From Sulfurisphaera ohwakuensis (GTDB lineage: Archaea > Thermoproteota > Thermoprotei_A > Sulfolobales > Sulfolobaceae): a stretch of DNA of 64,000 nt. Location of the stretch: NCBI RefSeq assembly GCF_009729055.1, contig NZ_CP045484.1:124001-188000 (forward strand). Direction: 5' to 3'. A program made the translations under genes and the position numbers. Positions 3,175 through 59,834 of this stretch are shown here, in pieces. Position 1 is the stretch's first letter, and each line of letters starts with the position of its first letter. Under the pieces are notes generated by a model, which had not been told where the DNA came from, did no database searches, and saw nothing but the letters and a program-made list of their open reading frames with translations.

Positions 3175-3250
<76 letters not shown>

Positions 3251-3412
3251 CTGGCGGGCATGCCCCCATCCCTTTATATAACTTTCTATTATTTTATATA
3301 AAGGATCTACAAATTAATATCCTTATTTATCACTTTAATCTTTCTCTGTTAAGTAAACATATTCTTCTTAGTATCTTTTTACATAGAAAAATCTTTCTAT
3401 TCTTTCGAATGA
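3251..3412 (-). pseudogene. Decayed SSV-type integrase N-terminal fragment, int(N), at tRNA-Asp
   Basis: Reading the minus strand in the single frame whose codons start at 3307+3k gives EEYVYLTEKD, then five codons later FVDPLYKIIESYIKG, with in-frame stops at 3370, 3337, 3325 and 3316. This aligns without gaps over about 33 residues to the intact int(N) at tRNA-Ala (YYVYKIEKD...YIGPLDKIIEKYLEIG). The fragment runs antisense into the tRNA 3' end, exactly as SSV-type int(N) does. The conserved spacing in one frame despite four stops argues for real descent, not chance. The remainder of the element that brought it is gone. An alternative is random similarity in A/T-rich DNA, which I consider unlikely. 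Confidence 0.6.
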
Positions 3413-3548
3413 GATATATAAATTCTTATCATAAGATAAACTTTAGACTAAATAAAAAGGAATGTATATATGTTCTTTCTATGACATAATATTGATGAGT
3501 TTCAATAGGAGTTGCAATTCTTTATAGTTGTCTTCACTCTTTATATTT

Positions 3549-4250
3549 ATGCTATGTATTCATGTAAGTAACGTAGAAAAAAGATATGGTAATTTGATAG
3601 CATTAAACGGAATTTCCTTTGATATAAACTGTAATGAAAAATGGGCGTTACTGGGGCCTAATGGTGCTGGTAAAAGTACTTTATTAAAAATTTTGGCTGG
3701 ATTAATAAGACCAGATAAAGGAGAAGTGAAGATTATGGACAAAGATCCATCTTCGGTAGAAATAAAGAAAATTCTTGGATATCTACCGGAAGATGCTGAC
3801 CCTTTCCCCGGGCTTTCTGTTATAGATAATTTGAAATTTGTAGCCTCATTAAGAAATGTTGATGAAAACAAAATATACGACCTATTAGATGTATTAGATC
3901 TGCGCCATTACATCAATTATAAGGCTTCTACATTATCTAGAGGGAATAAACAAAAATTAGCTATTGCTATGGCTATTCTGCATGAACCTAATATTATTCT
4001 ACTAGATGAGCCTTTGAATTACCTTGATATTCCAACCCAAGAGACTGTAATAGAACTACTAAAGAAAATGAATACTTTACTGGTTTCAACTCATATACTT
4101 TCAGTCGCAGATAAATTAGCAACAAAAGTATTGATTATTTCAAATGGTATTATCAGATGGATGGGAGATTTCGTTGAGCTTAAGAAAATGGCTAATGGGA
4201 ACGAACCTATTGAACATATTATAGCTAAGCTAATTAAAGGATATTATTAG
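3549..4250 (+). CDS. ABC transporter ATP-binding protein (orphan)
   Basis: A single ABC ATPase domain of about 233 residues: Walker A GPNGAGKST (residues 36-44 from the ATG at 3549), Q-loop region YLPEDADPFPGL, signature LSRGN, Walker B IILLDEP, D-loop NYLD and H-loop STH. The signature deviates from LSGGQ in the way often seen in ABC-2 type exporters. I chose the ATG at 3549 over the upstream TTG at 3528 because the protein then begins MLCIHVSNVEKRYG, the usual first strand of the fold. No permease gene is adjacent: the next gene is a GNAT. It probably partners a membrane protein encoded elsewhere. The transported substrate is unknown. Confidence 0.85.
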   Translation: MLCIHVSNVEKRYGNLIALNGISFDINCNEKWALLGPNGAGKSTLLKILAGLIRPDKGEVKIMDKDPSSVEIKKILGYLPEDADPFPGLSVIDNLKFVASLRNVDENKIYDLLDVLDLRHYINYKASTLSRGNKQKLAIAMAILHEPNIILLDEPLNYLDIPTQETVIELLKKMNTLLVSTHILSVADKLATKVLIISNGIIRWMGDFVELKKMANGNEPIEHIIAKLIKGYY

Positions 4251-47216: not shown

Positions 47217-47466
<250 letters not shown>

Positions 47467-51950: not shown

Positions 51951-52028
<78 letters not shown>

Positions 52029-52078
52029 GCTTTCATAATGAATTGAAAGATATTTTCATTCTCTTTATAAGTACATTA

Positions 52079-52108
52079 ATGCAAGGTATCTAGGTAAAAA
52101 TGCAAAAT
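52079..52108 (+). repeat. Putative left arm-type sites (ATGCAA motif pair)
   Basis: ATGCAAGGT at 52079-52087 and ATGCAAAAT at 52100-52108, 21 bp apart, inside the left end of the plasmid. The same two words recur at 59375 and 59408 near the right end. Integrase arm binding is inferred only from this symmetry. Confidence 0.4.
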
Positions 52109-52136
52109 CCTTATTAAGCGGAATGCTAAACATATA

Positions 52137-53423
52137 TTGATGGTCAGTTTCGATATTTCGAGGCTAAACTATGATCAAAGGCTCCGCGTGCTTAAGAAGG
52201 CAGTAGAAAAGCACGGTAAGGCATATATTGCGAGAGTGTGCAATGTCAACTTAGCCACTATTTATCGTTATCTGAATGGTCAGATTTCAACAATACCAGA
52301 TGAGGTAGTTGAGAAGATATTGCAAACATTAACAATTGAGGAGATTAGTGATGCGATCTATGGTCTAAGGACTATTGAAGTTGATCCCACGATTGCTTTA
52401 AGTGTAGTAGTTAAGGCAATGAAGGATGAGGGCTTTCGAAACTTCTTCCTATCCTTACTTTATAAATACTTAGGAGATTATTTGAAGCAAACATCTCAGT
52501 CCTATGTCGTTACAGAAGAAGATGTTAAACTGTTTGAGAAGATTGTTAGGGAGACTAGAACTAAGAAGACTGCAGATGATCTAATTAGGTATTTAGCACG
52601 TGCTTTAGCAGAATTAAATAATGAACTGACTCCTGACAAGTTAAAGGAATATATATATGAATTAACGGAAGAAAATAGGGGTAGAGCCAGACACACTGCA
52701 AGAGCATTAAAACTCTTCATTAAAGAAGTAGTAAAGTTAAGAGATAGCCACTTAGCACGAGAGTTATATGAATCATTTAAGATACCTAAAGCTAAGACTA
52801 ATTATAAGCCTATCAGCCTGAGCTTAGACACATTAAAACAAATATTTAATAATATAGAGGATTTGGGCGCTAAGGCATTCTTCCTACTTTTGGCTGAAAC
52901 CGGGCTTCGTGTTGGTGAAGTGTTAAATCTAAGAGTTGACCAGATAGATTTAGAGCATAGGATTATTCACATTAGTAAGGTTAGTGAGACTAAAAGAGCT
53001 TACATTAGTTTCCTTCACGAAAGCACGGCGAAATGGCTAAAGGAGGTGTATTTGCCATACCGTGAAGAGTTCATTAAACGTTATGAGAGTAGTATACGCA
53101 AACTGGCTGAGGCAAACCCTGAGCAGAATATAGATATCGAGGCGTGGAAGACCAAACTATTCCCATTCAGAGAGGACATGTTAAGAGCTGAGATTAAAAT
53201 TGCAATGAGGAAAGTTTTGGGAAAAGAGTTCAGGCTTTACGATTTACGAAGCCTCTTCGCATCTTACATAATAAAGCAAGGAGTTAGCCCTATGATAGTT
53301 AATTTATTGCAGGGTAGAGCACCACCACAGCAATTTCAAATACTACAGAACCACTACTTCGTGGTTTCCGATATTGAGCTTCAACAATATTACGAAAAGC
53401 ACGCGCCACGATTGCTTCCATAA
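52137..53423 (+). CDS. Tyrosine recombinase / integrase
   Basis: A 428-residue integrase with an N-terminal helix-turn-helix-like segment (GKAYIARVCNVNLATIYRYL) and a C-terminal catalytic domain. The active-site arginine lies in ETGLRVGEVLNLR (R near 258), the second arginine in FRLYDLRSLFASYIIKQG (R near 371; Y-D-L-R in place of H-x-L-R), and the nucleophile is the tyrosine in LQNHYFVV (Y407). It directly follows its tRNA target. Unlike SSV integrases it does not contain att within the gene. It should catalyse integration and excision at tRNA-Arg. Confidence 0.88.
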   Translation: MMVSFDISRLNYDQRLRVLKKAVEKHGKAYIARVCNVNLATIYRYLNGQISTIPDEVVEKILQTLTIEEISDAIYGLRTIEVDPTIALSVVVKAMKDEGFRNFFLSLLYKYLGDYLKQTSQSYVVTEEDVKLFEKIVRETRTKKTADDLIRYLARALAELNNELTPDKLKEYIYELTEENRGRARHTARALKLFIKEVVKLRDSHLARELYESFKIPKAKTNYKPISLSLDTLKQIFNNIEDLGAKAFFLLLAETGLRVGEVLNLRVDQIDLEHRIIHISKVSETKRAYISFLHESTAKWLKEVYLPYREEFIKRYESSIRKLAEANPEQNIDIEAWKTKLFPFREDMLRAEIKIAMRKVLGKEFRLYDLRSLFASYIIKQGVSPMIVNLLQGRAPPQQFQILQNHYFVVSDIELQQYYEKHAPRLLP

Positions 53424-53463
53424 TTCCGTATCCATGCAGTACTTTGCGAACTGCGGGAAGCTA

Positions 53464-53514
53464 AGCAGAGGTTAGCAAACCTGAGCAAATTTTAGCAGAA
53501 TTAAGCAATAAGCA
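53464..53514 (+). repeat. Exact 10-bp phased AGCA array
   Basis: AGCA occurs at 53464, 53474, 53484, 53494 and 53504, each exactly 10 bp from the next, with a last copy 7 bp on at 53511. The flanking trinucleotides vary. One helical turn spacing puts all copies on the same DNA face. It lies just after the integrase gene. Confidence 0.7.
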
Positions 53515-53578
53515 AGTGCTTATGGAATAGGAGATATAGGACCCCGTGCTTAAATTCTCTGCTCTGCTGCACTCGCAT

Positions 53579-53662
53579 TGCGAAATTCTGCGAATGCAAT
53601 CCCATTATACAATTGACGACCTTAGAAGTGTGTATGAAAAACATGCACCACGACTACTTTAA
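53579..53662 (+). pseudogene. Stranded C-terminal end of a second tyrosine integrase
   Basis: The frame reads CEILRMQSHYTIDDLRSVYE followed by KHAPRLL and TAA at 53660. It aligns with the C-terminus of the intact integrase (FQILQNHYFVVSDIELQQYY then EKHAPRLLP), including the nucleophile tyrosine in SHYT. Only about 27 residues remain; no catalytic arginines are upstream. It probably derives from an earlier or recombined integrase. The ATG at 53594 is fortuitous. Confidence 0.7.
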
Positions 53663-53782
53663 AATTATAAATTTTGTAAAAGGCATTTTTGTAAAAAGCA
53701 TTTTTTATAACAATAAGTTCCCCTAATTAATAATTTTTTAACTTTCCCATCAATGGGATCTCTCCTATATGCATATTGTGAG

Positions 53783-54139
53783 CTACTCCGCCCTAAAGGG
53801 CGAGATTTTCCGCCCCCTTTGAATCCCCTTTTCTATGAGCTTAACTGCTACTAAATCTGCTAACTCACTTTCAAAACCTTTATTTTTTAACAAATCACGT
53901 AGACGCGAATGCAATTTATCAACCATAATATGCAAAAACCCTTGAATCATAACTTCTCTGAACTTCTCATCGTTTCCTTCGCTGAGAAGAAATGCTATAA
54001 GCATTAAATCTTCCACATTATGCCCCCACTTCTTCCTATGATTCCTACCGCGATATAGATCGATTAGCTCATCAACGCGCTCATCATATTTAGCCAACAG
54101 CTTTTTAGCTATCCTCTTATGGTATTGTCTACCCGGCAT
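53783..54139 (-). CDS. Basic plasmid protein of unknown function
   Basis: A 118-residue, strongly basic protein ([39 protein letters not shown]). It is all-helical in appearance with no known motif. I do not recognise the family. It lies opposite in direction to the integrase and on the same strand as repA. The charge suggests nucleic-acid binding; that is inference. It has a well placed ATG and no better alternative. Confidence 0.6.
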
Positions 54140-54498
54140 ATTTTAATCTTAGATTCTAAGCTTAAAAAACGAAGGCTACAAGAGTATTACTCTCCCCGGC
54201 TAATAAAACCTATATAGGATTCCGTTAGACATCATAGACTTCATTCAGGGTGTAAGCCCACCGTTTGTCCCTACACTTTCATTTCACTCATTTTATGTTC
54301 AATGAGAGAGTGTAGGGACTTAGCCCTCAACCACTGTGGGTCATGGGACTCCTTTGAGCCCAACGGCACGGGACTCACATCTCTGTAATCCCTCTCACCC
54401 TTTTGGGCATAGCCCACATCGGTGTGAGAGATCATCTTTATCAGAAAAATTTTAACATTATCAAATATAAAAAGATTTTTATTAACGTGAAAAAGGGT
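54140..54498. other. Structured non-coding region of the plasmid
   Basis: 359 bp without a gene. It includes a strong hairpin, arms GTCCCTACACT (54268-54278) and AGTGTAGGGAC (54310-54320), with an inner stem CTCATT/AATGAG (54288-54293, 54302-54307). A second inverted pair is CTCTCAC (54392-54398) and GTGAGAG (54424-54430), with an inner CCC/GGG. The region is G/C rich compared with the surroundings. It may be a replication origin or a regulatory RNA. Confidence 0.55.
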
Positions 54499-54744
54499 TC
54501 AGCCCAAACCCTGTATCATTCTTTCGAATTCATGTAGAGCATCTAGAAGTATTGGCATTGCTCTTTTCCCCAACACGCGAATTAGCTTCTCGCACCTCTC
54601 ATCGCTTATTATACCCTTTTCCTTAGCCTGATACGCCGTTTTCTTACTATAGCCTGCAATGATTAAATCTTCTATTGAAGCTATATCTAACAACTTTCGT
54701 TTGTAACTCACTGGCAAGAATTCGCAGACCATTCCTATCCCCAT
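54499..54744 (-). CDS. Small helix-turn-helix-like plasmid protein
   Basis: An 81-residue protein with IEDLIIAGYSKKTAYQAKEK as a likely helix-turn-helix, followed by helices (GKRAMPILLDALHEFERMIQ). No family is recognised. The start ATG at 54744 is about 23 nt from the TATA box CTTAAATAC (54771-54763), so the mRNA is leaderless. A 16-bp repeat covers its start and recurs 42 bp upstream on the far side of the TATA box, consistent with autorepression. The alternative start MVCEFLPV is at residue 5. Confidence 0.6.
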   Translation of the reverse strand: MGIGMVCEFLPVSYKRKLLDIASIEDLIIAGYSKKTAYQAKEKGIISDERCEKLIRVLGKRAMPILLDALHEFERMIQGLG

Positions 54745-54789
54745 ATGAACATCGAAGCACTAGTATTTAAGCCTTCCTATCCCCATATG
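54732..54789 (-). promoter_or_regulatory. Paired 16-bp operator-like repeats around a promoter
   Basis: CATATGGGGATAGGAA (minus strand) at 54747-54732 and 54789-54774, identical over 16 bp and 42 bp apart. The first covers the start codon and transcription start, the second lies upstream of the TATA box at 54771-54763. This brackets the promoter. Confidence 0.65.
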
Positions 54790-55229
54790 GAACGATTTTT
54801 GCAGTTAAAGTGTTCAAAAAATTCAATGTTGAGGGATTAATCTCGTAAAAGTGTTTTTAGTCCCTCGTTTTAACGGTTCTATTAGGGGTTTGGCTAGGAC
54901 TATGAAAGGAATATGACAAAGATTCCTCAGTTCTGCAAAAAACTGAATTCTTTTTCAACTGCAGCTGAGAAAAATTCAATTTAGCACGGGTGTGTTTGGA
55001 GTTGAGGAAAGCCGATAGATAAATTCAGTTAATCTTTGTAAGATTATTTGAAAATCACGATTACTATAGTAATATTATCACGAGGCTGACTACTTATGTC
55101 CAATGTGTCCAACTAAAAATATATTATTTTTTTAAATTTTCTGACACTTTTACAGCCGTGGGGAGAAAAAAAAGTTGGACACAATGGACATAAATTGGTC
55201 ATGACAGTTTAAAAATTCAATTAAAAAAT
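54745..55229. other. Intergenic region of the plasmid with operator and inverted repeat
   Basis: 485 bp without a gene between repA and the small HTH gene. It holds the operator repeat, several palindromic words (AACTGCAGCTGAG near 54957) and the 21-bp inverted repeat 55094/55173. The rest is A/T-rich. Confidence 0.55.
55094..55193. repeat. 21-bp inverted repeat behind repA
   Basis: TTATGTCCAATGTGTCCAAC (plus a last T) at 55094-55114 and its reverse complement at 55173-55193, 20 of 21 positions pairing. The 58-nt spacer is A/T-rich and contains GTGGGG. It lies 36 bp beyond the repA stop. Candidates are the plasmid origin or a terminator. Confidence 0.65.
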
Positions 55230-57833
55230 TCAATCAAACCGCACGTGCTCTTCATCAATCCAGTGACATAACCCTTTCTTTTCACACCAGTCTAACAATT
55301 CGTATGCCCTAAGCCCTAACTCGTCTTGTAAATCCTTCCTACTTCTGATCTTACCCTGGTACTCTTTGTATAATTCTAATAATGAATTACTGGAATCCCC
55401 ACCGCTTTTTTCACCTGGGCTAACCCCCGTGTTGTCTTCAATCTTCTTCAGTCTAATTCCTACGTAACACCAAACCCTTTCTCTGTCAATCTTCTTCCTA
55501 TCTTTAGTTATCCTAAACCTGGTCTCAAGTCTTTTAGTAAATATAGCCTGGTTTTCCGGTCTTTTGTCATTCTCCTCACACCATTCCGCATAAGCCTGGT
55601 AAAGCTCTTTCACGGGCGTGAATAGGTCACCATTCTTAGGGTCATACTCAGCCCTACCGCTCTCTAATAAATCCTTAATAAAGGCATAAACAGTGTCTGT
55701 CGTCCTCTCCCACTTCTCCTTAATGTCTGCACTACTATCCTCAAAGTCAAACTTCTTCTGCTGAAGCACACGTGCAAATGCTAAAATGCTAACTGTTATT
55801 GTTCCTTCTATCTCATCTTTTGTAAATGTCCTATCAAAGAATTTAGGATCATCATCAAACTGGTGCGGGAATTCTATCACTATCCACCTTCTCCAAAAAC
55901 CATAAGTTTGGTCTTTTACCACGGGCAATTCGTTTGTAAGGTTGATTAGTTTAGCATAATTGATGAAATATATGGGGTCTTTGAACTTCTTTTGCCCTTC
56001 AATATAATCATTCCCCGTGAGTTTTTTGAATAGATCAGTGTTTGTTACTTTGAAGGCAAATAACTCACTACTAATATTTGCCAATTTATGGTACAGTTCA
56101 ATTGATGCAAACTTATCCCCTTCCATGATCCTCTTTAACGATACTGCTGAAGTATTTTGTTTTCCTAAAATCTTCAACAAAAGATTGGTAAATGTGGTTT
56201 TTCCATTACTACCGTTACCCACTAACAATATTGCCTTATTAAAATCATACCGTGGATAGAGTGTATAACCAATAATCTCAAACAATAGGATCCATTTATC
56301 ATCAACCCATTGCTTAAACGCCTCTAAGCTTTTAGGACAAACACGGCGTGCTAACTCTTCAATACCCTGGACTGTTATCTCCTTACCCTGGAATTTCTCG
56401 ATTTCATCAATTTTCACATTCCATGGTATGTAATGGAATGCGAAAACTTTAGGACTCCTCTCTTTTGCATCATACCAAATTATTCCTTTCTCAGTCCACT
56501 CCAGGGTACCATTCTTGAATGCTATCCTCATGGGCTCTTTTACCAAAGGCTTAAGGGTTCTCCTCATAATCTCATCTTTAATATTCCTAACCACGCGTGA
56601 CTTGTCAGCACCAATTGGGAAATCCTTATACTCCTCAAGTTTCTCGTTAATGTCTTCCTCTATACTGATATCATACGGCTCAAAAATTCCCTTCTTTTTA
56701 TCGAATACAAATAAACCTACTAACCACTCCTTAATCTGATCACTTTGTTTAAAGGTTACTATTTTACGCTCACGCGTGATTTCTTCAGCAATAGCTTCAA
56801 TAACTATTTTTTTAGCCCTGGACTTGTCTTCTTTAGATACCTTCTTAGCCTCTAGGTACTTTGATACTATACTCCACGCATTTTTGAGAGTTAATAGGAA
56901 ATATTTGCGTGAATCCCATTTCTCATTATTCTTAGCCTTAGAGTCTTCTGGCAAAACCTTGAGTATTAGACCTGGGTCCCTAAGCCCGTGATATAGCAGT
57001 GTTTTAATTATTCTAAAGTCTCCACGACTCCTATCAATTCCTACATCAGCATAAGTTTTTCCATCGCAGATTACCTTATACTCAACACTCTCATGTTTCA
57101 ACTGCTTACATATTTCATTCTTAGCCTCTTCAACACTCCTAAACTTATTCTTCTTCTTGAGTTCACCAATAAGTTCATCTTCAATCTCCTTATCCTCTTC
57201 TTCCTTCTTTCCTTCAACCCACCCCCGTGATGAACTGTTAAGCTCTATCCCTAGTTTCTTACCCTGGTCAGCTAGAAATTTCAACAACCCTTTGAGGTCT
57301 ACTTTTGATATTTCATTATTATTTAATGGAACATAGCACGTGGTATAATCTTGTCCTTTCCACGGGCATTTCTCGCTTGTGCAATGTTTATGGTTAATGC
57401 ACGATTCCGGGCCTACTACATAGGAGTTGAATGATTGTAGGTCTGCAATGCCTTTGTTATCCTTAGTGAACACGGGGTTGAATTTATGCTCTGGGATCTC
57501 ATCAGCGGTAACGAAAACATGAAGCCCACCGTGAGGAGTATTTACACAGAGTGTTTTACTACACAAGTCATTAAGAGCGAGTTCGCCTATCCATATTTTC
57601 AGCAGTTCTTTGTCCTCAAAGTCCAGGATTACTAACCCTTTTTGCCCACCTGGTACTGCGTAGTTATAACCCTTCTCAATCATCTCTAAGTACTGCTTCT
57701 TCTCTTCCTCAGTTAACGGGATCGTGCTATATTTTTGCCACTCCTTAATCACGGATTTTTTGCTCTCTGGGTCTATTGGGAAAATAGCAAAACCGTGATC
57801 AATAAACCATTTAGCAAACTGCAGTTTATCCAT
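55230..57833 (-). CDS. repA: pRN1-type replication protein RepA: primase-polymerase and SF3-like helicase
   Basis: An 867-residue protein. The N-terminal third is the archaeo-eukaryotic prim-pol fold: IDHGFAIFPIDPESKKSVIK, GLVILDFEDKEL holding the D-x-E metal ligands, then NTPHGGLHVFVTADE. The C-terminal half is a helicase of superfamily 3: Walker A GNGSNGKTTFTNLLL (residues 536-551), Walker B-like KLANISSELFAF, LINLTNELPVVKD and an arginine finger in FWRRWIVIEFPHQF. It ends in a winged-helix-like region. The layout and size equal pRN1 ORF904, which primes and extends DNA. Overlaps the Cys-rich gene by 8 bp. Confidence 0.92.
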   Translation of the reverse strand: MDKLQFAKWFIDHGFAIFPIDPESKKSVIKEWQKYSTIPLTEEEKKQYLEMIEKGYNYAVPGGQKGLVILDFEDKELLKIWIGELALNDLCSKTLCVNTPHGGLHVFVTADEIPEHKFNPVFTKDNKGIADLQSFNSYVVGPESCINHKHCTSEKCPWKGQDYTTCYVPLNNNEISKVDLKGLLKFLADQGKKLGIELNSSSRGWVEGKKEEEDKEIEDELIGELKKKNKFRSVEEAKNEICKQLKHESVEYKVICDGKTYADVGIDRSRGDFRIIKTLLYHGLRDPGLILKVLPEDSKAKNNEKWDSRKYFLLTLKNAWSIVSKYLEAKKVSKEDKSRAKKIVIEAIAEEITRERKIVTFKQSDQIKEWLVGLFVFDKKKGIFEPYDISIEEDINEKLEEYKDFPIGADKSRVVRNIKDEIMRRTLKPLVKEPMRIAFKNGTLEWTEKGIIWYDAKERSPKVFAFHYIPWNVKIDEIEKFQGKEITVQGIEELARRVCPKSLEAFKQWVDDKWILLFEIIGYTLYPRYDFNKAILLVGNGSNGKTTFTNLLLKILGKQNTSAVSLKRIMEGDKFASIELYHKLANISSELFAFKVTNTDLFKKLTGNDYIEGQKKFKDPIYFINYAKLINLTNELPVVKDQTYGFWRRWIVIEFPHQFDDDPKFFDRTFTKDEIEGTITVSILAFARVLQQKKFDFEDSSADIKEKWERTTDTVYAFIKDLLESGRAEYDPKNGDLFTPVKELYQAYAEWCEENDKRPENQAIFTKRLETRFRITKDRKKIDRERVWCYVGIRLKKIEDNTGVSPGEKSGGDSSNSLLELYKEYQGKIRSRKDLQDELGLRAYELLDWCEKKGLCHWIDEEHVRFD

Positions 57834-58035
57834 GCCTCATCGCCCTAAAGAGCGTATAGGGATCATTTCCACGATAGACTCCTTCTCTAATCTCAGCGTA
57901 AATTCGATCTTCGAGTGTTGGTGGGCATTCGGCATAATACCCCATCTTTCCACACATGGAACTATCGCTAAAGCAGTGCCTTCCGAATGGGCATGAAGAT
58001 TTTTTATAAAGTTTAACAGAGATTAATTTAGCCAC
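57826..58035 (-). CDS. Small cysteine-rich plasmid protein
   Basis: A 69-residue protein with CPFGRHCFSDSSMCGKMGYYAE and a final C as a four-cysteine group, possibly a zinc site. Basic N-terminus (AKLISVKLYKK). It overlaps repA by 8 bp and is translated upstream of it, so it may be the equivalent of the small gene that precedes repA in pRN plasmids. In those plasmids that position is occupied by the ribbon-helix-helix CopG, but this sequence does not resemble CopG. Function unknown. Confidence 0.6.
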   Translation of the reverse strand: MAKLISVKLYKKSSCPFGRHCFSDSSMCGKMGYYAECPPTLEDRIYAEIREGVYRGNDPYTLFRAMRHG

Positions 58036-58062
58036 CGTGCCACGCCCCCTTTTCCTTATTTT

Positions 58063-58338
58063 TTAACTTAATTGCACAATCAATGTGATTTTCTTTACTT
58101 GACTCCAGTCTAGAAGATTTTTCGGTAAACCTATAGCTAAAGTACCATTTTTATTTACGCTGTAAAATGTCTTGAAACCGATAGGGATAATCGAATCCCC
58201 AACCTTTGCGTACACGTAGTATTTTCTGCCTTTTTCTATGACTTCTGAAAATATTTTGGGAATAAATCCATACACGTGGTCTTTCGTGACTTCCACTGTT
58301 ACTGAAGGGATAACTAGCTGTTTCAATTCGATTGACAT
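58063..58338 (-). CDS. Hypothetical plasmid protein, possibly AbrB-like
   Basis: A 91-residue, beta-rich protein. The segment SVNKNGTLAIGLPKNLLDW recalls the swapped-hairpin AbrB/SpoVT fold (K-x-G-x-I-x-L-P). The first half VTVEVTKDHVYGFIPKIFSE is unlike it. The start ATG at 58338 has GGTGAT 4 nt upstream. It faces the divergent 271-residue regulator, and its TATA box (minus 58381-58372) overlaps an operator-like repeat. It could be a copy-number regulator; that is inference. Confidence 0.5.
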   Translation of the reverse strand: MSIELKQLVIPSVTVEVTKDHVYGFIPKIFSEVIEKGRKYYVYAKVGDSIIPIGFKTFYSVNKNGTLAIGLPKNLLDWSQVKKITLIVQLS

Positions 58339-58363
58339 GCTATCACCAGGCTCATCTATGCAA

Positions 58364-58399
58364 TTTCGCTATATATATAAATTCATGAAGAAAGCGAAA
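58364..58399. promoter_or_regulatory. Operator-like inverted repeat, copy 1
   Basis: TTTCGCT (58364-58370) with AGCGAAA (58393-58399) as inverted arms, overlapping the TATA box of the minus-strand 91-residue gene. The distance between arms is the same as in copy 2. It is followed by a mini-frame MKKAKGDLI. Confidence 0.6.
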
Positions 58400-58449
58400 G
58401 GGGATTTAATCTAAACGAAATGAGATAAACTGAAGAAAATGTGGTAAAC

Positions 58450-58458
58450 TTATATATT
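58450..58458 (+). promoter_or_regulatory. TATA box of the 271-residue plasmid gene
   Basis: TTATATATT centred 26 nt upstream of the ATG at 58480, the leaderless distance. The operator copy 2 begins 4 nt further on. Confidence 0.65.
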
Positions 58459-58461
58459 GCG

Positions 58462-58497
58462 TTTCGCTAAATAACTATTATGAGTGAGAAAGCGAAA
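58462..58497. promoter_or_regulatory. Operator-like inverted repeat, copy 2
   Basis: TTTCGCT (58462-58468) and AGCGAAA (58491-58497), with the same spacing as copy 1 at 58364. It overlaps the transcription start and the first codons (AAAGCGAAAGAT) of the 271-residue gene. Confidence 0.6.
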
Positions 58498-59295
58498 GAT
58501 TTGGTAAGGGAAATTCTCATTGAGAAACGTGAAGTTGGTAAAGATGAGCTAATGAGAGAGCTGAATGTCTCGGCACGGCGTGTTGAGCAATTAATTAGGG
58601 AGTTGAATGAGGAGTTAATTAAAGATGGTTTGAGAATAATAGGTGAGGGTAAAAATCCCAGAATATATAGATTAGTGAAAATCGAATATGATGACTTTAC
58701 GCTAACTCCTGATATTGCTTCAGCACTGCTTAGATTCAATAATCTAACTACCGCGTGCAGACTTGTACAAAAGTTTAATAAGATACTTCCGCGTGCTTTA
58801 GATCTGTTAAAGGAATCGAGGTGGAGATTGCTGTATTTCACGGCTTTGGCACAAATTAAGAGTGGTAGTATGAAAGTTATCGGAGACCAACAGATTGAAC
58901 TAACTGATGAAGATGTTAAATTTCTGAAGCAAAACATTACACGAGAGAATTATAATTTATTCAACACCTTTGTGTTTTCCAATGGCGAGGTGTTAAAACA
59001 GTTCTTCGTTAAGTTAAAGTGGTCTGACATTGAGCAAAACCCCGTGCTTTTGACAATAGTTCAGGTTGTACAAAATATGGGTTTGCACAGAGAAATCATT
59101 TGTAATGTGGATCCCGAATTCATCGTGTTTTGGGGTCGTGGAATGGAAGAACAACTAGTATCGGAATGTACACCTACAAAGCAAACAGAGATGTTAGTGA
59201 AATTAGATGAGGTAAGGGAAAGAATCTCTAAAGTATATAATGAAGTTAGAGATCTTTTAGTCCCACAAAAAACGGGTGAAGGTGTGTTATATTAG
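58480..59295 (+). CDS. Winged-helix plasmid regulator, unknown family
   Basis: A 271-residue protein. The first 65 residues form a winged-helix domain (KRE.VGKDELMRELNVSARRVE with LIRELNEELIKDGLRIIGEG), the remainder is unrecognised and contains a C-terminal coiled-coil-like helix (LVKLDEVRERISKVYNEVRD). Leaderless promoter with operator-like repeats around its TATA box and the divergent one. It may repress both genes, an inference from layout. It is the last gene before attR. Confidence 0.6.
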   Translation: MSEKAKDLVREILIEKREVGKDELMRELNVSARRVEQLIRELNEELIKDGLRIIGEGKNPRIYRLVKIEYDDFTLTPDIASALLRFNNLTTACRLVQKFNKILPRALDLLKESRWRLLYFTALAQIKSGSMKVIGDQQIELTDEDVKFLKQNITRENYNLFNTFVFSNGEVLKQFFVKLKWSDIEQNPVLLTIVQVVQNMGLHREIICNVDPEFIVFWGRGMEEQLVSECTPTKQTEMLVKLDEVRERISKVYNEVRDLLVPQKTGEGVLY

Positions 59296-59322
59296 CAAGA
59301 TGATTTGAAAAGCACGCAGAGG

Positions 59323-59345
59323 CAAAATGTATATTTGGCATTTTG
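59323..59345. terminator. Short hairpin after the plasmid regulator gene
   Basis: CAAAATG (59323-59329) and CATTTTG (59339-59345) form a perfect 7-bp inverted repeat followed by TTTAACAATTATTTTT. A terminator for the regulator gene is plausible. Confidence 0.35.
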
Positions 59346-59374
59346 TTTAACAATTATTTTTCGAAATGCTTTAG

Positions 59375-59416
59375 ATGCAAAATAGCACGTGCAAAAACTA
59401 GCCTAAAATGCAAGGT
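59375..59416 (+). repeat. Putative right arm-type sites (ATGCAA motif group)
   Basis: ATGCAAAAT at 59375-59383, GTGCAAAAA at 59390-59398 and ATGCAAGGT at 59408-59416, just inside the right end of the plasmid. They match the left pair at 52079 and 52100. Confidence 0.4.
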
Positions 59417-59424
59417 TATGTGCT

Positions 59425-59467
59425 CTTCGGAGCCGGTGGTCCCGGGTTCAAATCCCGGCGGGCCCGT
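59425..59467 (+). repeat. attR of the integrated plasmid
   Basis: CTTCGGAGCCGG... through 59462 is identical to the tRNA-Arg 3' half for 38 nt, then one mismatch and CCGT. The 5' half of the tRNA is absent, so this is not a functional tRNA. It is also the left att of the older SSV-type element. Confidence 0.9.
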
Positions 59468-59834
59468 TGTGGGGGACACCCCCACACCCCCACTTTCTTT
59501 CAATTTTAGATAAGTCTCTACGACGTCAGCTAAAGGACCTATGTAACGCTCTTTTATCTCACCATTTATCGTTTCCAATTTATAGACATAATACTGACCT
59601 TTCCTTTCCCTCAAAATTATGTCACCATATTTATAACGCATCTTATCTTTCGCCATTTCGCCTCAAGTATTATGGTTACTAAAATCAGTTTATAAGTAGT
59701 TGACTAATGTCAAAATTGCCGTAAAAATGTGAGGAGTTGAACAATTTAATTAATTTTATAGTCTCGATTCCTAGGTAACTATAACGCTAATAAATGCATA
59801 ACAGATTTTAATTTATTAAGTTTGTATGCTTTTA

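Follow-up and report, generated by a model that had tools for sequence, protein, structure and literature searches.

A decayed SSV-type int(N) beside tRNA-Asp(GTC) in Sulfurisphaera

In type I archaeal integrases, attP is part of the int gene, which is split when the element integrates into the 3' half of a tRNA gene; int(N) stays at the restored tRNA (PMC8371274). Here, we ask whether a short minus-strand frame with four stop codons beside tRNA-Asp(GTC) of Sulfurisphaera ohwakuensis is the remnant of such an int(N) and, if so, which kind of element left it and when. The analysis covers a stretch of 64,000 nucleotides (the window), the rest of the genome and comparison loci from relatives and viruses.

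An interrupted integrase frame antisense to tRNA-Asp

tRNA-Asp(GTC) is located at 3175..3251 on the plus strand (ARAGORN; Rfam tRNA, 58.8 bits) and is the integration target, with the att core in its 3' half. The SSV-type int(N) pseudogene abuts its 3' end at 3252..3412 on the minus strand, as identified by translation, profiles, DNA alignment and blastn. Translation of 3200-3430 (minus) gave ...FFYVKRY*EEYVYLTEKD*SDK*GY*FVDPLYKIIESYIKGWGHARQRRGRDLNPGQG, in which the YVYLTEKD motif (3338-3361) and FVDPLYKIIESYIKG (3269-3313) are separated by stops; all four stops are TAA (3368-3370, 3335-3337, 3323-3325 and 3314-3316). From GY*FVDPLYKIIESYIKGWGHARQ, the frame continues antisense into tRNA-Asp as RRGRDLNPGQG. 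As a reference, separate from this relic, we used the intact int(N) at 47272..47466 on the minus strand (PF07935, 79.2 bits), which reads YYVYKIEKDSNGNVKETYIGPLDKIIEKYL and is located beside its target tRNA-Ala(GGC) at 47217..47291 on the plus strand. The distance from YVY to PL is 21 residues in both copies. The motif spacing in a frame with four stops, as well as the antisense entry into the tRNA 3' end, which is the place and direction expected of int(N), had been claimed in a preliminary description of the locus, and both are borne out.

With four stops within ~50 codons and only short motifs, the frame could be A/T-rich DNA that resembles int(N) by chance. In agreement with this caution, the match of the X-masked frame to PF07935, the N-domain of the SSV1 integrase, is 14.3 bits (E 0.052 against all Pfam), under the curated cut-off of 22 bits; a PF07935 search of the whole genome lists the relic at 13.3 bits with 4 TAA. 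Against this stands the score of 18.2 bits, or 22.2 bits in another tiling, with our own profile of non-redundant int(N) (56 in all, from Sulfolobaceae and SSVs), from which the tRNA-Asp copies of the genus were left out. None of 3000 dinucleotide shuffles, read through in six frames, reached 18.2 bits, the maximum being 11.0; by this profile, the relic resembles the SSV integrase N-domain more than chance allows, while its Pfam score is below the Pfam cut-off. Aligned locally to the intact int(N) as DNA, with no translation involved, the relic scored 76 against a null maximum of 34. Moreover, the relic without the tRNA matches viral int DNA at E 2e-7 in a collection of 2.3 billion bases and is found at the same position in four species. 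Based on the shuffles and the DNA alignment nulls, we reject chance similarity, which we regard as extremely improbable. The earlier proposal of a fossil SSV-type int(N) thus withstands comparison with shuffled sequence, and the homologous DNA in other genomes is integrase-related.

When the whole window was scanned by read-through with our profile, only the known int(N) at 47.3 kb and 59.5 kb scored higher, and the best unrelated place reached 7.5 bits. Among the 36 tRNA trailers of the genome, nine int(N) scored 32-116 bits, Asp-GTC 18.2 bits, Leu-TAA 17.0 bits and the other 25 at most 1.7 bits. The tRNA-Leu(TAA) trailer, which lies outside the window (L174; G000:C1:324598-324981), carries a second decayed int(N), recovered by reading through as ...KYYIIK*R*KKRSIAGSLDKIIEFYVK. 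tRNA-Asp had been described as a third integration target; this is true only within the window, because the genome has int(N) at no fewer than 10 further tRNA genes. These sites include the tRNA-Arg 3' half near 59430. At this locus (51952-59656), tRNA-Arg(TCG) is followed by a gene for a 428-aa tyrosine integrase (52137-53423) and one for an 867-aa replication-like protein; a repeat of the tRNA 3' half comes next, near 59420-59466, and behind it lies an SSV-type int(N). This arrangement suggests that a plasmid encoding an unsplit integrase entered a tRNA gene in which an older SSV-type insertion was already present.

Occurrence in the genus and decay

The relic is not strain-specific. Using DNA local alignment to the intact int(N), with the hairpin and tRNA excluded, we found it in all four genus members compared (G000-G003), with scores of 76, 62, 53 and 47 and respective null maxima of 34, 34, 34 and 30. 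By the same alignment, 23 tRNA-Asp trailers of other Sulfolobales genomes were at null level, none of them scoring above its own null maximum, and thus had no relic. In L025 and L031, which represent two other genera, tRNA-Asp is accompanied by an intact int(N). Directly after the YVYLxxKD/N motif, each of the four species has a stop codon (TAA, TAA, TAA and TGA), and the T that creates this stop is found in none of the aligned intact relatives; also, the orthologue of the ABC-transporter gene follows tRNA-Asp in all four. The copy in G001 is weak as a protein (6.2 bits), and its identification rests on the DNA alignment together with the shared stop codon. In this species, the distance from tRNA-Asp to the ABC gene is ~0.74 kb (L100, 9821-10563), compared with ~0.3 kb in the other three, and no int(C) was found in the extra DNA of the interval.

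The simplest reading of these alignments is that a single integration took place and that the gene was already dead in the ancestor of the genus; most likely, the relic predates the split of the four members compared. Alternatively, tRNA-Asp could have been hit twice, once in G001 and once in the ancestor of G000, G002 and G003, with independent decay of the two insertions. Living SSVs use tRNA-Asp repeatedly, and a separate insertion in G001 still deserves consideration in view of the longer distance to the ABC gene and the different hairpin in this species. However, all four species share the position of the stop and the neighbourhood of tRNA-Asp and the ABC gene, which argues against it, and we consider separate integrations improbable.

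Consistent with a dead gene, the relic has diverged at the pace of silent sites. Beyond the first 31 nt after tRNA-Asp, the comparison of G000 with G003 shows 24 differences in 136 sites (17.6%) and six gap runs, and that of G000 with G002 shows 9 in 142 (6.3%); the corresponding values at the four-fold sites of the ABC gene are 17.7% and 8.4%. Within the first 31 nt, there are no differences between G000 and G003 and one between G000 and G002. Thus, the relic beyond the tRNA-proximal 31 nt behaves as unconstrained DNA. Stops and frameshifts in all four species leave no conserved open frame; together, the frameshifts and the neutral divergence rule out a functional, recoded int(N).

The source element and its traces

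When a 211-base query that included the tRNA half was compared with 50,697 phage records, the top eight matches were Sulfolobus islandicus SSVs (E 2e-20 to 1e-16). In these eight (MK054220 and seven others), a single continuous alignment with 74-75% identity spans the att core and int(N), so that homology to an intact int continues through the att core. Four further SSVs in the whole phage collection match the int(N) part alone (E 2e-7). Among the comparison loci, blastn with 3252-3425, without the tRNA, matched SSV int at E 4e-11 and the intact int(N) of another genus at E 3.5e-12. The viral int reads the att core in the frame of the relic (...QRRGRDLNPGQGLDRPP), and tRNA-Asp-GTC is the integration site of MK054220 and its relatives, the S. 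islandicus spindle-shaped viruses (PMC6452263, Table 1). Because of the eight matches, the common site and the shared frame, we conclude that the relic is the left edge of such an element. The orientation is reversed in SSVK1 (L119) and MK054219 (L118): unlike in MK054220 and the relic, their int reads the tRNA-Asp core as the sense strand (ACRAPDPGSNPGRG), and int(C) rather than int(N) should therefore end beside the tRNA in these two viruses.

The source element was likely a virus rather than a plasmid, although no element gene remains at the relic to decide between the two. SSV-type integrases are present in the plasmid records NC_010365 and NC_013777, and conjugative plasmids also use tRNA genes (PMC3718332); nevertheless, an integrated plasmid with an SSV-type integrase is an unlikely source, given that the nearest known DNA is that of SSV genomes and that identity between the plasmid integrases and SSV int(N) does not exceed 49%.

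Little else of the element is left. No match to int(C) was detected in 20 kb around tRNA-Asp in G000, G001 and G003, and an exact 26-nt match to the tRNA-Asp 3' half, as expected of attR, was found only at tRNA-Asp itself, near matches not lying beside the locus. In G002, a weak int(C)-like match lies 7.7 kb upstream but resembles the integrase of the unsplit type at 53.2 kb of the window, and a candidate attR in G011 (L103) is the 3' half of a different tRNA; both were discarded. Viral or other element genes are absent beside the relic, which is bounded by the start of an ABC-transporter ATP-binding gene (3558..4250, plus strand) 0.15 kb past its end. As no int(C), attR or element gene is left, integration is not demonstrable by a paired boundary, and the locus is an int(N) remnant, not an integrated SSV provirus.

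Between the tRNA and the relic's motifs, folding and the comparison set revealed a slightly decayed copy of a G+C hairpin (3252..3268; TGGCGGGCATGCCCCCA) of the kind found beside SSV-type int(N) genes; the other int(N)-associated hairpins in the window are at 47292-47309 and 59468-59486, and MK054220 has such a palindrome as well. Among loci L001-L098, 38 of the 50 trailers with int(N) (score of at least 40) have an exact G+C-rich palindrome in their first 27 nt, compared with 2 of 72 without int(N) and 3% of shuffles, although these counts are not independent events because the loci are related. Mean folding energy over the first 32 nt is -12.3 kcal/mol in int(N) trailers versus -2.7 kcal/mol in the others (p 1e-17); for the relic, it is -7.1 kcal/mol. 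The arms vary with pairing kept (TGTGGGGG/CCCCCACA, TGAAGGGG/CCCCTTCA, TTAGGGGG/CCCCCTAA and TAGGGGGA/TCCCCCTA), and the hairpin occurs in all three codon phases (6, 19 and 14 cases). This pattern points to a dyad in the DNA or RNA, and not the protein, as the target of selection. We tentatively speculate that SSV-type int carries a sequence-flexible hairpin outside the tRNA att half, serving as a 3' trailer structure of the restored tRNA or as an arm site of the integrase, and that this hairpin outlives int; if so, hairpin scars would mark former insertions after the loss of int(N). Both palindrome trailers without an int(N) score belong to tRNA-Asp (L026 in G019 and L020 in G026), and their hairpins may be scars of insertions whose int(N) has gone. 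The words 'hairpin' and 'terminator' are absent from the review PMC8371274, and the compensating G+C hairpin of int(N) genes may be a newer finding than the relic itself.

A related possibility, compatible with an ancient integration and about as tentative, is that the hairpin brought in by int took over as the 3' trailer or terminator of tRNA-Asp and that the first ~31 nt were retained for this reason. The contrast between 0 of 31 differences there and 24 of 136 in the rest fits this idea, as does the occurrence of hairpins in int(N)-bearing trailers and not in others. However, in other tRNA trailers of the genus, which have no hairpin, identity over the first 30 nt is also often 90-100%, and the sequence of G001 differs in this part. 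Because trailers are so often equally conserved, we take the conservation of the 31 nt as suggestive and do not accept it as proof of function.

A proposed history and its place among known systems

Altogether, we consider it highly probable that the relic is the decayed int(N) of an SSV-like element that integrated at tRNA-Asp(GTC) in the ancestor of the genus and of which the rest was lost. Homology, position, direction, frame, presence in four species, the shared-codon stop, neutral-rate divergence and the lack of int(C) nearby all support this reading. According to this model, the element, most likely a fusellovirus but perhaps a plasmid whose integrase is of this type, would have entered the 3' half of the tRNA gene, and its self-splitting tyrosine integrase would have cut int in two, so that int(N) remained in antisense orientation at the restored 3' end of the tRNA. 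The remainder, including int(C) and attR, would later have been deleted up to the present ABC-transporter gene, and int(N) would then have decayed as non-coding DNA, with constraint kept only on the tRNA half and perhaps the adjacent hairpin, as tRNA gene and trailer. The viral identity of the element, the single integration event and this order of loss are the parts that we infer.

Use of tRNA-Asp by spindle-shaped viruses or their kin, as the relic indicates, dates from before the diversification of the genus and continues to this day. In three S. islandicus strains, int(N) remnants at tRNAs, including Ala-GGC, have been tabulated, and Asp-GTC is absent from that table (PMC3718332, Table 5). 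Because the survey compared annotated proteins, a frame with four stops could escape it, in line with the earlier suggestion that the relic is invisible to ORF-based annotation. Scanning tRNA trailers with stops read through brings to light integrations that escape ORF-based surveys and offers a countable record of old integrations in Sulfolobales.

tRNA-Asp as an SSV target and int(N) relics at tRNAs were known already; what is new is a very eroded example at Asp-GTC. The relic shares with the type I (suicidal) SSV-type int(N) fragments at Sulfolobales tRNAs (PMC8371274; PMC3718332, Table 5) the split integrase, the position, the direction, the N-domain and the frame that runs antisense into the tRNA; however, it is far more eroded, with four stops, frameshifts in relatives and no open frame. 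With the S. islandicus SSVs at tRNA-Asp-GTC (MK054220 and relatives; PMC6452263), it has in common the tRNA, the core frame and ~74% DNA identity in int(N), but these are complete virus genomes, many of them replicating, while the relic is only a left edge. The degenerate SSV-like provirus at tRNA-Thr(GGT) of S. islandicus (PMC3718332) is likewise a shared, decayed remnant from which a single old integration was inferred; in contrast to the relic, which is int(N) only and genus-wide, it has kept several viral genes and was placed after the split from S. solfataricus.
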